Source: Burkholderia sp. TSV86 (GTDB lineage Bacteria > Pseudomonadota > Gammaproteobacteria > Burkholderiales > Burkholderiaceae). From it: a stretch of 64,000 bases of DNA. The first letter of the stretch is position 1. Each line of letters starts with the position of its first letter. Position numbers and translations under genes: made by a program. This document shows positions 9,360-14,801 of the stretch, in pieces. The notes under the pieces are model-generated. The model saw nothing but the letters and a program-made list of their open reading frames with translations, had not been told where the DNA came from and searched no databases. Location of the stretch: positions 1 to 64,000 of the forward strand of contig NZ_LOWB01000085.1 in assembly GCF_001522865.1 (NCBI RefSeq), given 5' to 3'.

Positions 9360-10853
9360 ATGACTGAACTCGAATTTCAATCGCTCGCCAACGCCGGCTA
9401 CAACCGCATTCCGCTGATCGCCGAAGCGCTCGCCGACCTTGAAACGCCGTTATCGCTATACCTGAAGCTCGCGCAGCCCGAACGCGGCGGCGCGAACTCG
9501 TTCCTGCTGGAATCCGTCGTCGGCGGCGAGCGCTTCGGACGCTATTCGTTCATCGGTCTGCCCGCCCGCACGCGGTTGCGCGTGAAAAACGGCATATCGG
9601 AAGTCGTGACGGACGGGCAAGTCGTCGAAACGAACGACGGCGATCCGTTCGCATTCATCGCGGCATTCCAGAGCCGCTTCAAAGTTGCGCAGCGCGCCGG
9701 CCTGCCACGCTTTTGCGGCGGCCTCGCAGGCTATTTCGGCTACGACGCGGTGCGCTATATCGAAAAGAAGCTCGCGCACACCGCACCGCACGACGATCTC
9801 GGCCTGCCCGACATCCAGTTGTTGCTGACCGAGGAAGTCGCCGTCATCGACAACCTCGCGGGCAAGCTCTACCTGATCGTCTATGCCGACCCGGCAACGC
9901 CCGAGGCGTACACGAAGGCAAAGCACCGGCTGCGCGAGCTGAAGCAGCGGCTGCGCGCGAGCGTCGAGCCGCCCGTCACGTCGGCGAGCGTGCGCACCGA
10001 GATCTACCGCGAGTTCAAGAAGGACGACTATCTCGCCGCGGTCCGGCGTGCGAAGGAATACATCGCGGAAGGCGAACTGATGCAGATCCAGGTGGGCCAG
10101 CGCCTGTCGAAGCCGTACCGCGACAATCCGTTGTCGCTGTACCGCGCGCTGCGCTCGCTGAATCCGTCGCCGTACATGTATTACTACAACTTCGGCGATT
10201 GCCATGTGGTCGGCGCGTCGCCGGAAATTCTCGTGCGCCAGGAAAAGCGCGGCGACGACGAAATCGTCACGATCCGCCCGCTCGCGGGCACGCGCGCCCG
10301 AGGCAACACGCCCGAGCGCGACGCCGAACTCGCGACCGAGTTGCTGAACGACCCGAAGGAAATCGCCGAGCATGTGATGCTGATCGATCTGGCGCGCAAC
10401 GACATCGGCCGGATTGCGCAAATCGGCTCGGTTGCCGTCACCGACAAGATGGTGATCGAAAAGTATTCGCATGTGCAGCACATCGTCAGTTCGGTCGAGG
10501 GCAAGCTCAAACCCGGCATGACGAATTTCGACGTGCTGCGCGCGACATTCCCGGCCGGCACGCTGTCCGGCGCGCCGAAGGTGCGCGCGATGGAACTGAT
10601 CGACCAGCTCGAGCCGGTGAAGCGCGGCCTCTATGGCGGCGCGGTCGGCTATCTGTCGTTCTCGGGCGAAATGGATCTCGCGATTGCGATCCGCACCGGC
10701 CTCATCCACAACGGCAATCTATACGTGCAGGCAGCGGCGGGCGTCGTCGCGGACTCGGTGCCCGAATCCGAATGGCAGGAAACCGAGAACAAGGCGCGCG
10801 CGGTACTGCGCGCGGCCGAGCAAGTGCAAGACGGCCTCGATTCCGATTTCTGA
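9360..10853 (+). CDS. trpE: Anthranilate synthase component I
   Basis: 497 residues from the ATG at 9360. The N-terminal [17 protein letters not shown] (around residue 43) contains the LLES element that binds tryptophan for feedback inhibition; the C-terminal half is the chorismate-binding domain, including [26 protein letters not shown] and [19 protein letters not shown]. It converts chorismate plus ammonia (supplied by TrpG) to anthranilate. It is controlled by the leader/attenuator upstream. It converges, with a 20-bp gap, on a methyltransferase gene that separates it from trpG. Confidence 0.96.
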
Positions 10854-10873
10854 CCGGAGATTGACCACGCGGC

Positions 10874-11692
10874 TCACAAGCGGTGTCCGATAAAGGCAGC
10901 GCGGGAAAGCCTGCCTTCGACCGACACCAGCCGGGTGGTCGCCAGGAAACGCTGCATGCGATCGAATGCCTCCTCGCCCTCGATCGCGACAAGTTGCGCG
11001 CGCCGCTTCTCGCGCGCAGCATGCCAGCGTTCGCTGAGTTTCACCACATTTGCCGTGAGATCGACTTGGTGCTCCAGTTTCAGCCCCGCTTCGGCGATCT
11101 GGCATTCATTCAAACCGACGGGCGTATATAGAAAATAACCTGGTGTACCACGCTCCACGACCTCGTCCTTGCTGACGATACCCGTAACCAACGTGGGGTC
11201 GGTATAGACGAACCGTCCGCCAGGTTTCAGCAGCCGCCGCCATTCGTTCAGCAGCGCCTGCCGATCGCGCAGATGAACGATCGAATCGACGCACAGCAAC
11301 GCATCGAAGCTGCCATCCGGAAACGGCAGCGGCTGACGCACGTCGCAGTCGACGAACTGGCTGCGATCTTGCAGCCCCTGCTCCCGCGCAAGCCGTCGCG
11401 CAGTTTGCAGGCCGTCCGGCTGAATATCGACACCCGTGACCCGGCATCCGCTCTGCTTGGCAACGAATAGCGCCGGCCCGCCTGAGCCGCTGCAAACGTC
11501 GAGCAGATGGGAATTGGCGGACAGGCCCAGCCACTGCCCAAACGCACGGAAGTCATCGGCGGTCGACCAGTCGTTCTGCCCCAGATCCTCTCCATAAGTT
11601 TCCGAGCGTACCTCCTCGATTGCCTGGACCGTGAAGCCGCCAAATGCGCGTTCGTAGAAACCGGCGTGAAGATGGGTGGGCTCGTGGGTCAT
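10874..11692 (-). CDS. Class I SAM-dependent methyltransferase in the trpE-trpG cassette
   Basis: 272 residues. The SAM-binding motif I is DVCSGSGGPALF (residues 65-76), motif II ends in VTGVDIQPDG with Asp89 for the ribose, and LLCVDSIVHLRDR and LKPGGRFVYTDP are the later Rossmann motifs typical of small-molecule methyltransferases. The N-terminal FYERAFGGF and NDWSTADDF resemble UbiE/phosphoethanolamine-type enzymes, but the substrate cannot be read. Its ATG overlaps the stop of the cysteine desulfurase gene (ATGA), so the two are translationally coupled. Third gene of a leftward three-gene operon. Substrate unknown; methylation of a sulfur-containing product is only a guess. Confidence 0.8.
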   Translation of the reverse strand: MTHEPTHLHAGFYERAFGGFTVQAIEEVRSETYGEDLGQNDWSTADDFRAFGQWLGLSANSHLLDVCSGSGGPALFVAKQSGCRVTGVDIQPDGLQTARRLAREQGLQDRSQFVDCDVRQPLPFPDGSFDALLCVDSIVHLRDRQALLNEWRRLLKPGGRFVYTDPTLVTGIVSKDEVVERGTPGYFLYTPVGLNECQIAEAGLKLEHQVDLTANVVKLSERWHAAREKRRAQLVAIEGEEAFDRMQRFLATTRLVSVEGRLSRAAFIGHRL

Positions 11693-12855
11693 CTGCGGGG
11701 CCCCTGACGAAGAGCATTGATCTTGTGGACAAGATGCTCGAGCGCCGTATCCAGCGTGGCCTCGTCGAGATCATGCGCGAAGCAGAACCGAACGGATGCC
11801 CGGGCCTGCTCGCCGCTCAGGCCGATCGCGGTAAGCACGGGCGAAGGCAGCAGTTCCGCGGAATTGCAGGCCGAGCCCGACGAAATAGCGACCTGATGCA
11901 TCCCGGATACCAGCGCCTCCGATGCGATGCCTTCGAAACGAACATTCACGACATATGGCGAGCTGCATGAGAGATCGGTGTTCAACACGGCATCCGATAC
12001 ACGTTGAAAGAGACGCTCGATGAAATAGTTCCGCAATGTCACGACTCTCGTGTGACGCTGGGCGAGCGAGGACTGCGCCATTTCGCACGCGAGACCGAAT
12101 CCGGCAATGAGCGGGGTCGGCAGTGTCCCGCTACGCAGGCGGCTCTGGCCGCCACCGTAAATAAAGGGCCGCAGCTTTGAGGCCACGCGCGTATCGACGA
12201 AAAGTGCGCCGATGCCTTTGGGCCCCTGTATCTTGTGAGCGGAAATCGACAGCATGCCGATACCGGTTTCCTTGACATTCAGCCCAATCTTTCCCGCCGA
12301 CTGAACCGCGTCTATATGCAGCCATGCGCCCGAACGGCGAGTGATCGACGCGATTTCGTCCACGGGCTGAATCGTGCCGAGTTCGGAGTTCACGTGACCG
12401 ATGCTGACAATGCGTGTGTCGGCCGACAGTCGCGCCTCGACCTCCGACGGCTGCACGCGTCCGCTGGACGTGACGCGCAGGGTGTCGACCGCGAGCCCCC
12501 GGCGCCTCAGTTCCCGGCCGACGGACAATACGGATTTGTGATCGATCGGGCAAAGCAGCGCGCCGGCAGGCGCGCGTTCATCATGCTCGAAGCTCGAGAA
12601 CAGCGCGATGTTGTTCGCCTCCGTCGCCCCCGACGTGAAGACGATCTCGTCAGCGCGCGCGCCGATCAGCAACGCGACTTGCCGGGCCGCGGTCTCGACC
12701 GCATGCTGCGCACGGCGCCCCATCGCATAGGCGGATGCGGGATTGCCGAACTCCCGCTCCATGTAAAACCGCACGATGTCGACCACTTCCGGCGAACATC
12801 GCGACGTGGCGCAGTGATCGAGATAGATCGCGTCACGGGAACTGTTGGCGTTCAC
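11689..12855 (-). CDS. Cysteine desulfurase, IscS/NifS type (PLP aminotransferase class V)
   Basis: 388 residues from a GTG at 12855 that has GGGGGAG seven bases upstream. The opening YLDHCATSRCSPEV corresponds to YLDxxATTP of IscS. SAHKIQGPKG supplies the PLP lysine (K208), GGGQSRLRSGTLP the phosphate/substrate loop, and SSGSACNSAELLPS the mobile-loop catalytic cysteine (C330). All catalytic residues of group I desulfurases are present, so it should make enzyme persulfide and alanine from cysteine. No iscU, iscA, fdx or sufE partner is adjacent, which suggests a dedicated sulfur donor for the neighbouring genes rather than general Fe-S assembly. Second gene of the cassette, 16 bp after the first. 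Confidence 0.85.
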   Translation of the reverse strand: MNANSSRDAIYLDHCATSRCSPEVVDIVRFYMEREFGNPASAYAMGRRAQHAVETAARQVALLIGARADEIVFTSGATEANNIALFSSFEHDERAPAGALLCPIDHKSVLSVGRELRRRGLAVDTLRVTSSGRVQPSEVEARLSADTRIVSIGHVNSELGTIQPVDEIASITRRSGAWLHIDAVQSAGKIGLNVKETGIGMLSISAHKIQGPKGIGALFVDTRVASKLRPFIYGGGQSRLRSGTLPTPLIAGFGLACEMAQSSLAQRHTRVVTLRNYFIERLFQRVSDAVLNTDLSCSSPYVVNVRFEGIASEALVSGMHQVAISSGSACNSAELLPSPVLTAIGLSGEQARASVRFCFAHDLDEATLDTALEHLVHKINALRQGPRR

Positions 12856-12871
12856 GACATCGCTCCCCCGC

Positions 12872-13774
12872 TCAGGATGTAATGACCTCGACGTTGACAA
12901 GCTTCGAGAAGATTTCGTCCGGCTGCATCTCGCCGCTCCCGCCTGGATCCGCGATGATGACCTTCATGCCGGTCAGCCCGTATAGGGACAGTGCGACCGA
13001 TACTCCCGTTTTGACGGGCTGAAAGCACTCGCCAGGAGCAAACATCAGGAGCAAGCGGTGCCCGCTCTTGTAAATCTCCGAGATCATCTCGGTGATCTCT
13101 CCCGCGCATCCGGTTACGCCGCAAGTAATGAGCGGTTTATAGTCGCCGTTCTCGTCGATGAGAGAAATTTCGGTTCCGGCATCTGGGCCGTCATCGAGCA
13201 CGCGGCGGTCGAGACGCCCCGCCTTGACCAGCTTGTCGGCGCTTTTCTGGAAGCGGTATTTAAGCCAGGTTTCCGGAAAAGCGATCGGGTGCTTGCGGCT
13301 GGCAAGCACATTGTCCGCGGAAAATTTCCCGCTGCGCTCAAGAGCCGCACGATACGACGCCGGGAGCCTGTCGAACTGCTCATAAAAAACGCGCCGCAGC
13401 TCGGACGCGGGGCCGCTGGAAGTCGAAACGTATTGCCAGTCATTGATGAGCAGCAGGAATCGGATCGAGTCGAAGCGCTGCTCGAACGCTTGCGCAATAC
13501 GAACGCCAAGTTCCCATGTATAGCCGGGAAATATGCCAACCCGCCGCGCAATCCTTTCGCGCATGGGCGATTCGTTTTCTTCGATTACGCCGGGTACGAG
13601 GCATCCCCGAGACTCGTCGAGGAAAAGCATGAAGTGCCCGGCCATGATAATGAGTTCCCGATTCGACGCAGCCGATATTTCCGTCTGGAGCAGGCCGAGC
13701 AGTTCCTCTTCGGATTGCACAAGGCGATGGTGATGGGAGTAGCTGGCGAGTCGGGGCTGGTCGAGAGCAGGCAT
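12872..13774 (-). CDS. Unrecognised 300-residue protein, first gene of the desulfurase cassette
   Basis: I do not recognise this family. It is 300 residues, without signal peptide or membrane helix, so probably cytosolic. The N-terminal half (residues 1-190) is mixed helix/strand with a hydrophobic strand ending LLLINDWQ (around 107-114) and GIFPGYTWELG (around 80-90). The C-terminal part (200-300) looks alpha/beta and contains all but one of its cysteines: C218 and C223 in CGVTGC, and C250 in APGEC; C58 lies in SRGCLVPG. These could be sulfur relay or metal ligands. AAGGA lies 16 bases before the ATG, farther than usual, and no alternative start is available. It leads the operon with cysteine desulfurase and methyltransferase. 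Confidence 0.7.
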   Translation of the reverse strand: MPALDQPRLASYSHHHRLVQSEEELLGLLQTEISAASNRELIIMAGHFMLFLDESRGCLVPGVIEENESPMRERIARRVGIFPGYTWELGVRIAQAFEQRFDSIRFLLLINDWQYVSTSSGPASELRRVFYEQFDRLPASYRAALERSGKFSADNVLASRKHPIAFPETWLKYRFQKSADKLVKAGRLDRRVLDDGPDAGTEISLIDENGDYKPLITCGVTGCAGEITEMISEIYKSGHRLLLMFAPGECFQPVKTGVSVALSLYGLTGMKVIIADPGGSGEMQPDEIFSKLVNVEVITS

Positions 13775-13797
13775 AGCAGTTTTGCAGATATCCTTAT

Positions 13798-13857
13798 GAC
13801 TATATTGATAAAGTAGTCTCGCCTACTCCCCATCGGGTACCTATCAAGGTTGATAGG
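13798..13857 (-). promoter_or_regulatory. Candidate operators/promoter of the desulfurase cassette
   Basis: Upstream of the cassette lies an 18-bp perfect palindrome, CCTATCAAGGTTGATAGG (13840-13857), and a second dyad with arms GACTA (13798-13802) and TAGTC (13814-13818). Both contain the core TATCAA/TTGATA. The second sits in AT-rich sequence only 24 bases from the gene start, where a promoter would be expected. The arrangement looks like a dimeric repressor or activator site; the regulator is unknown. Confidence 0.5.
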
Positions 13858-13992
13858 GAAACCGCGTTTCCGGTAGCGACTCCGCACGCTCGAGCATTGC
13901 GCATTTCGACGAACGAGGGCCGGCACCGCCCGCCGGATGCAAACCATTGCCCCCAATTCACCGCCAGGGCACGCGCGCCGCCGTTCCTTTTG

Positions 13993-14065
13993 TGCTGTTA
14001 GAATGCCGTTCATGCGACACAGCGCTCGATTCCCCTCCGTACTCCTCTTTTTTGGTTGGCGTTAA
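13993..14065 (+). promoter_or_regulatory. Possible trpG promoter with a short Trp-containing leader frame
   Basis: TGTTAGAAT (TAGAAT at 13999-14004 with the TG of an extended -10) is the best promoter match before trpG; no good -35 is seen. Just downstream, ATG at 14012 opens a 17-codon frame ending TAA at 14063-14065 with one TGG as the penultimate sense codon, followed by a TTGGC/GCCAA hairpin (14056-14074). The rest of the spacer to 14210 is GC-rich with a GGGGCG/CGCCCC dyad, but no U-tract terminator. A second leader is possible but weak. Confidence 0.3.
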
Positions 14066-14210
14066 GCCTGCCAAGTTCTTTGCACGGCCCCGCAGCGGGC
14101 GGCCCCATTTCCAGTCTGGCGAATTGGGGCGAATTTTGGGGTGGGCATCCCTTGAACGCCCCTGAATCCCAATCGAAAAATTGAGTATTTTCAAAGAATT
14201 AGGAGGAATC

Positions 14211-14801
<591 letters not shown>

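Follow-up and report, generated by a model that had tools for sequence, protein, structure and literature searches.

We find that a three-gene cassette in Burkholderia sp. TSV86 has as its conserved core a gene pair, A and B, which is rare and horizontally spread. The cassette lies between trpE and trpG in a 64,000-nucleotide (nt) stretch of contig NZ_LOWB01000085.1, called the window here. Its first gene, A, encodes a protein with a predicted fold resembling the catalytic domain of class I aminoacyl-tRNA synthetases. The second, B, encodes a cysteine desulfurase, and the third, C, a methyltransferase. We propose that A and B form a two-protein sulfur-insertion module of small-molecule biosynthesis, which would place sulfur on an amino-acid-like molecule that is here methylated by C. 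We consider this reading roughly an even call.

An earlier account made from the letters alone (the sequence-only reading) had taken the cassette for a small sulfur system, and the linkage of A to a desulfurase bears this out. A homology scan of a species-genome collection found at least 47 loci with A, the window not counted. Note that the scan used short peptide patterns, so this is a lower bound. B adjoins A in 44 of the 47 loci and is fused to it in one more (L047). The remaining two are a partial A near a contig end (L046) and the locus of Photorhabdus thracensis (L011). Two further intact loci, in Priestia and a second Pseudomonas, also have B adjacent. Pairwise distances of A and B are strongly correlated over the 47 loci (r = 0.95, a value to which shared genome descent, not removed, contributes). 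Between groups, A is better conserved than B (for example, 57 versus 46% between the window and Halalkalibacter), which would suit A as the enzyme that defines the pair. METHYLTRANSFERASE (C) can be absent: apart from the window, a C-like gene is present in 13 of the 47 loci, all of them from Burkholderia, Xenorhabdus or Photorhabdus. The sequence-only reading had asked whether A always travels with both a desulfurase and a methyltransferase. The answer is yes for the first, with exceptions (P. thracensis, the fragment at a contig edge, one distant homologue and a degraded remnant), and no for the second, even when two fusions with weak methyltransferase signal are added.

These fusions (L047/L058 and L056) come from two genomes, are 1005 and 1008 residues long and are 56% identical. 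Each joins a cysteine desulfurase domain to an A domain, which in L047 shares 25% identity with A of the window, and ends in a domain that matches methyltransferases weakly. The desulfurase domain is of another type than B: its best model, in the one fusion scanned, was sufS (2.4e-105, 353 of 475 bits). Both C-terminal domains matched Pfam Methyltransf_31 below the curated cut-off (9.4e-4 and 5.7e-4), and a profile of the two had glycine sarcosine N-methyltransferase as its best match among Protein Data Bank (PDB) sequences (0.0025). One of the two also matched the NCBIfam glycine/sarcosine N-methyltransferase model (2.6e-5, 24 of 350 bits). The hhalign comparison of this domain with C (probability 12%, E = 0.0024) is too weak to count alone, and its AlphaFold model (mean predicted local distance difference test score 52.7) is too poor for use. 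We read the fusions as the same trio assembled independently, provisionally so as regards the methyltransferase part.

The 47 loci belong to Burkholderia, Xenorhabdus, Photorhabdus, Pseudomonas, Brucella pecoris, Bacillales, many Streptosporangiales and one Patescibacteria metagenome-assembled genome (MAG). The A of B. singularis (L001) is 95% identical to that of the window. Alignment searches of whole genomes found A in 3 of 398 genomes of the window's phylum (its own, a remnant and one distant homologue), 2 of 239 from the phylum of the Patescibacteria MAG, 3 of 298 from the genus of Pseudomonas sp. TH31 and 2 of 398 from the class of the Paenibacillus locus L015. These are partial samples, each including its centre genome, and some matches are loci already known (G1079 = L014). 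Two Priestia plasmids carry A, both typed as non-mobilizable. The remnant, from another genome of the order (L057:6999-7247), is an 82-residue open reading frame (ORF) limited to the beginning of A (model positions 3-51); an EamA-like transporter follows it directly, and it has no desulfurase. The distant homologue (L055:7260-8105) keeps H47, the ND pair, C223 and C250; by eye, it lies directly downstream of a sodium/solute symporter-like gene. A had no match in 50,697 phage records, and a pattern scan of viral contigs found no relative of it, so we rejected a phage origin. The same contigs, scanned with the fusion, gave one locus (L106), which matches the desulfurase part only.

B is recognised by Pfam Aminotran_5 (3.3e-66). 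The sequence-only reading had credited it with the catalytic residues of an IscS/NifS-type desulfurase, and we located both the motif of the pyridoxal phosphate (PLP) lysine, SAHK (K223), and that of the catalytic cysteine loop, SSGSAC (C345; 403-residue numbering), which place B among the type I cysteine desulfurases. Its NCBIfam scores all fall below cut-off (NifS 340 of 531 bits, IscS 320 of 643, DndA 336 of 480). Elsewhere, the window's genome encodes another desulfurase-like gene, 39% identical to B. A housekeeping role in iron-sulfur cluster assembly was rejected: the cassette holds A, B and C only, with no scaffold gene among them, as noted before. For C, NCBIfam gives sarcosine/dimethylglycine N-methyltransferase as the best model, at 79.3 of the 550 bits needed and so far below cut-off. 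C thereby recalls the glycine/sarcosine enzymes matched by the fusions' C-terminal domains, whereas its best PDB match is another methyltransferase (7v6h).

A is not readily placed by sequence. Its sole Pfam match at E <= 1 is LPD16, which covers part of the protein (31.4 bits against a cut-off of 27). A search for this family across 398 genomes of the phylum gave the window's own genome only, and 14 control genomes gave no match. PMC5512222 reports the LPD16 domain from conjugative elements; A, with 300 residues and its gene between trpE and trpG, is not a large multidomain polyvalent protein of that kind. NCBIfam, PHROGs and PADLOC gave no match, and Pfam gave no thiouridylase, PP-loop or tRNA thiolase domain. 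Against PDB sequences, phmmer reached E = 0.4 at best, and a profile reached 0.0028, with a plant acyltransferase and over part of A. The predicted structure, in contrast, resembles the class I synthetase catalytic domain, with matches to arginyl- and cysteinyl-tRNA synthetases (ArgRS and CysRS) and to MshC, although identity to 12 ArgRS rows is only 7 to 13% over the aligned part. Unlike these enzymes, A has a partner desulfurase and lacks their signatures. There is no H-x-G-H in A, and the segment that hhalign sets, not significantly, on the HVGH of the HIGH motif is RVGI. KMSKS is absent, and close members instead conserve PGGSGE, a glycine-rich loop (277-282) after the last-but-one core strand, roughly at the place of KMSKS. 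An anticodon or tRNA-binding domain is lacking as well: the catalytic-domain alignments take up residues 11-293 of the model and leave no room for one.

Conservation points to a candidate active site. We compared 29 sequences: the 25 of our alignment, the distant homologue L055, the second fusion, and the Priestia and second Pseudomonas proteins. G46, H47, F82, N111, D112 and P138 are invariant in all 29, and C223, E226, P247 and C250 in all 28 that cover them; many of these sequences are close relatives, so the invariance leans on three divergent ones. The sequence-only reading had pointed to a CX4C pair (C218, C223) plus C250 as possible sulfur acceptors. The last two are the invariant ones, whereas C218 is kept in 25 of 28 and lost in both fusions and L055, where a cysteine sits nearby. 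The model puts H47 in the first of the long core strands, C223 at the beginning of helix 223-236 and C250 close to the beginning of helix 248-264. These three residues occupy the same places in the fold order as the zinc ligands of CysRS and MshC, which suggests that A may bind a thiol, a persulfide or metal-bound sulfur.

We infer the transfer of sulfur from B to A, and the reaction, substrate and product that follow from it. B would take sulfur off L-cysteine as a persulfide, as its family and catalytic residues imply. A, as a predicted synthetase core stripped of HIGH, KMSKS and tRNA-binding domains, would accept this sulfur and put it on a small molecule resembling an amino acid, bound where the synthetases bind theirs. 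H47, N111-D112, C223, E226 and C250 would form the active site. C may then methylate the product on nitrogen or sulfur, and other clusters would ligate, load or export it.

An unlikely alternative is that A still activates a carboxylate, with the persulfide of B attacking an aminoacyl-adenosine monophosphate (AMP) to yield an amino thioacid. Adenylation is the ancestral chemistry of the matched fold, and MshC couples cysteine to a small molecule with ATP; the position of PGGSGE also fits. However, the absence of both HIGH and KMSKS speaks against adenylation, and PGGSGE is itself missing from the second fusion and from L055 (the row of the first fusion ends before that position).

The neighbourhoods of A and B bear on the sulfur-insertion reading. 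Outside Burkholderia, Xenorhabdus, Photorhabdus and Actinobacteria, we examined seven loci with A and B intact. An EamA/DMT-family (drug/metabolite) transporter stands beside the pair in six of them (L013, L015, L016, L042, L059, L112); the seventh, L014, has none, and its contig starts 585 nt before A. A homologue of D-Ala-D-Ala ligase (Ddl) follows B in two Pseudomonas (L016, L112), in Brucella (L042) and in Priestia (L059). Both intact Pseudomonas loci have luxI directly upstream of A, with an adjoining LuxR-like gene seen by eye only, and show the compact order luxI - A - B - Ddl - EamA. The Priestia plasmid cluster runs through polyprenyl synthetase, comX, histidine kinase and response regulator, acpS and an acyl carrier protein, then acyl-CoA dehydrogenase, amino acid-acyl carrier protein ligase, a DMT transporter and an ATP-grasp enzyme that scores 211 of 840 bits with a dapdiamide-synthase model; a hydrolase gene, alaP and alr come after these. 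The Brucella locus has on its upstream side a B12-binding radical S-adenosylmethionine (SAM) protein, which passes the cut-off of TIGR04434, and a PLP enzyme of Cys/Met metabolism.

Several side observations concern these loci. On the Priestia megaterium plasmid NZ_CP085444.1 (L060, 97000-112100), the biosynthetic cluster looks complete, with comX signalling, an alanine permease and an alanine racemase. In Brucella pecoris, two IS3-type transposase-like ORFs (L042:6501-7714, by eye) separate the Cys/Met PLP gene from A, and a second Ddl-like match lies at about position 305. In Photorhabdus L004, an AlaP-like permease upstream of A comes after ast-type arginine catabolic genes (named by eye); the four Xenorhabdus loci gave no match to such a permease.

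The 27 actinobacterial loci share a different setting. One type of condensation-domain gene is found in all 27, and a second type, a carrier protein, an ATP-binding cassette (ABC) exporter and a regulator in 26 each. An AMP ligase is present in 25, with strong matches in 11 and matches of about 1e-26 to 1e-32 in 14. Where one of these genes is lacking, a contig end truncates the locus (L017, L033, L035). Given these exporters, Ddl homologues, quorum-signal genes and neighbours like those of nonribosomal peptide synthetases (NRPSs), A-B looks like a module of small-molecule biosynthesis. We think it likely that the product is a small metabolite akin to an amino acid, which many producers export, and perhaps an antimetabolite of D-alanine metabolism. 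The last point stems from Ddl, alanine racemase (Alr) and alanine permease (AlaP) neighbours, which resemble D-cycloserine self-resistance. From this analogy we guess that some clusters may target the D-alanine pathway; the window's cassette itself has no Ddl, Alr or AlaP gene.

Alanine also enters in another way. B might serve as a source of L-alanine for an alanine-derived product, with sulfur as waste or co-product. Several neighbours would fit this: the Ddl homologues in Pseudomonas, Brucella and Priestia, the alanine racemase and permease genes in Priestia, and an AlaP-like amino-acid permease upstream of A in eight of eight Photorhabdus loci (L004-L011). We nevertheless consider it improbable. 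Cells have other sources of alanine, and A has two invariant cysteines. No Ddl or Alr match was found in the B. singularis, Xenorhabdus or 27 actinobacterial loci (the 64-kb window itself was not searched).

Slightly less credible still is that A uses aminoacyl-tRNA as cyclodipeptide synthases do, with B supplying a sulfur nucleophile. These are class I synthetase-like enzymes by the title of Sauguet 2011 (as cited in PMC5816076), and two of them appear among the Foldseek matches of A (3oqh, probability 0.35; 3s7t, 0.23). They rank far below ArgRS and CysRS there, and none is among the 50 matches listed in our other fold comparison, which does not exclude them. Finally, a nucleic-acid modification or defence system, suggested by PADLOC matches of B to SspA (1.6e-119) and DndA (2.3e-117) and of C to mad2 (8.9e-26) and by the LPD16 name, is very improbable: B stays below the DndA cut-off and is matched just as well by the NifS and IscS models, no dndBCDE or sspBCD gene lies next to it (its neighbours are A, C, trpE and trpG; the rest of the genome was not searched), phage records and viral contigs yielded no relative of A, and the other A-B loci look biosynthetic.

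Several observations weigh against the sulfur-insertion reading. P. thracensis has lost B and keeps only shortened forms of A and C, as though the cassette were decaying in this species. No desulfurase occurs in the 16 kb read around A in L055. The link between A and the synthetases rests on a model from 25 sequences. Only one Foldseek match falls below E = 0.001, the top ArgRS and CysRS rows have query template-modelling scores of 0.30 to 0.41, and unrelated proteins (Argonaute, SPARDA; probability <=0.15) appear from rank 10 onward. Alignment of the A profile with those of ArgRS and CysRS by hhalign was not significant (probability 0.2% each). Moreover, no gene tells the substrate, and the neighbourhoods are too varied for one product. 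A bolder version of the sulfur-insertion reading is doubtful, and we offer it tentatively. A may found a new family in which a class I synthetase core, having lost its ATP and tRNA signatures, became a metal- or persulfide-dependent sulfur inserter. It would feed often quorum-controlled, exported sulfur amino-acid antimetabolites in bacteria of both Gram types, and Patescibacteria would have a version made of one protein.

Among known systems, to our knowledge, the D-cycloserine cluster contains neither a desulfurase nor A. Its likeness to the Pseudomonas, Brucella and Priestia clusters lies in a Ddl homologue, which in those clusters is accompanied by a transporter; the window's cassette lacks both; passages of PMC6100412 describe DcsI and DcsJ, a Ddl homologue and a membrane protein, in self-resistance. 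Nearest in logic to A-B is StuJ/StuS (TlmJ/TlmS) of the thiotetronate antibiotics, which the relevant passages of PMC5518548 present as a thiouridylase-like sulfur transferase with a NifS-like desulfurase, loss of stuS abolishing production. In contrast to StuJ, A has no thiouridylase or PP-loop match and is modelled as synthetase-like. A-B is also a tight, rare operon, and no polyketide synthase-NRPS stands beside it in the window. Paulomycin Pau30/Pau31 likewise includes a cysteine desulfurase encoded in the cluster, which passages of PMC4425429 propose as the sulfur source for a small molecule. There, the proposed partner is ThiF-like rather than A, and we set this system aside as a match.

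The cassette is an insertion between trpE and trpG (coordinates are given in the table). As described earlier, its genes form a leftward operon in the order A-B-C, with a 16-nt gap between A and B and a 4-nt ATGA overlap (11692-11689) between B and C. The gap assumes that B starts at GTG 12855; the longest mechanical ORF begins at TTG 12900, and we chose the GTG because relatives begin at about its equivalent. The G+C fraction at third codon positions is also lower than in the flanking genes, as claimed (A 0.70, B 0.74, C 0.71, versus 0.77-0.88 in six neighbours named by eye: rpe, gph, trpE, trpG, trpD and trpC). We searched for A in 61 genomes, comprising 37 of the same genus (the window's own included) and 24 from the order, and found it in two, both Burkholderia (the window's genome, G000, and G030). 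The arrangement is thus not genus-wide: 35 of 37 same-genus genomes lack A, which rejects an ancestral trp-operon gene, and the same insert in a second genome rejects a sequencing or assembly artefact. Of these genomes, 15 had their trpE-trpG junction read, among them both carriers of A. All 13 junctions without A have a gap of 16 nt; the three whose sequence was read out on the plus strand are TGA-CCGGAGACTGACC-ATG, spacer and start codon being TGACCGGAGACTGACC-ATG. The window retains this spacer after trpE with one change (10851-10866), and the trpG ATG resumes at 14211, the insert having displaced the sequence immediately before trpG. Accordingly, the cassette limit, previously set at 13857, is corrected to the trpG start codon. 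By eye, no transposase or integrase was recognised within the insert.

Features of the cassette and its surroundings (positions in the window; strand left empty where none applies)
Feature	Position	Strand	Description	Basis
C	10874..11692	-	SAM-dependent class I methyltransferase, 272 aa	ORF calls
B	11689..12855	-	Type I (IscS/NifS-like) cysteine desulfurase, GTG start, 388 aa	ORF calls
A	12872..13774	-	300 aa	ORF calls
Whole insertion trpE/trpG	10867..14210		About 3.34 kb	Junction comparison with genomes without A
trpE	9360..10853	+	Left flank	ORF calls, junction reading
trpG	14211..14801	+	Right flank	ORF calls, junction reading
AGGAGG	14201..14210	+	Ribosome-binding-site-like, given to trpG by the insert	By eye
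Palindrome CCTATCAA-GG-TTGATAGG	13840..13857		Upstream of A, possible operator	Sequence, B. singularis comparison
129-bp stretch	13985..14113		Lies in the insert; possible leader for trpG or A	Identical in window and B. singularis

The region upstream of A had been described as the cassette's own palindromic regulatory region. The palindrome is there, and it is identical in B. singularis. By itself it is weak and only modestly unusual, since 500 mononucleotide shuffles of this intergenic sequence produced a perfect 8-bp inverted repeat with a spacer of <=6 in 20 cases. It was not visible in seven aligned Xenorhabdus and Photorhabdus upstream regions, and the 64-kb window holds no second copy. 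The 129-bp stretch is 100% kept in B. singularis although A differs by 5%, and a search of 10 genomes found it in none but the two that carry the cassette. Rfam gave no match on 13700-14300. Inside this stretch, by eye, lies a small ORF (14012-14065, plus strand) of 17 residues (MRHSARFPSVLLFFGWR), followed by GC-rich inverted repeats. Together, these could be a leader of trpG.

Our searches of the open-access PMC literature listed no paper on A or on the A-B pair. A is a handle on a sulfur-incorporation route on which these searches turned up nothing. A-B is a clean marker for genome mining, both of small clusters in unrelated bacteria and of an actinobacterial NRPS-like family. Neighbouring Ddl, alanine-racemase and alanine-permease genes suggest a cell-wall-related target for some of the products. 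If the proposed mechanism is true, A would be another reuse of one of translation's oldest folds for new chemistry.

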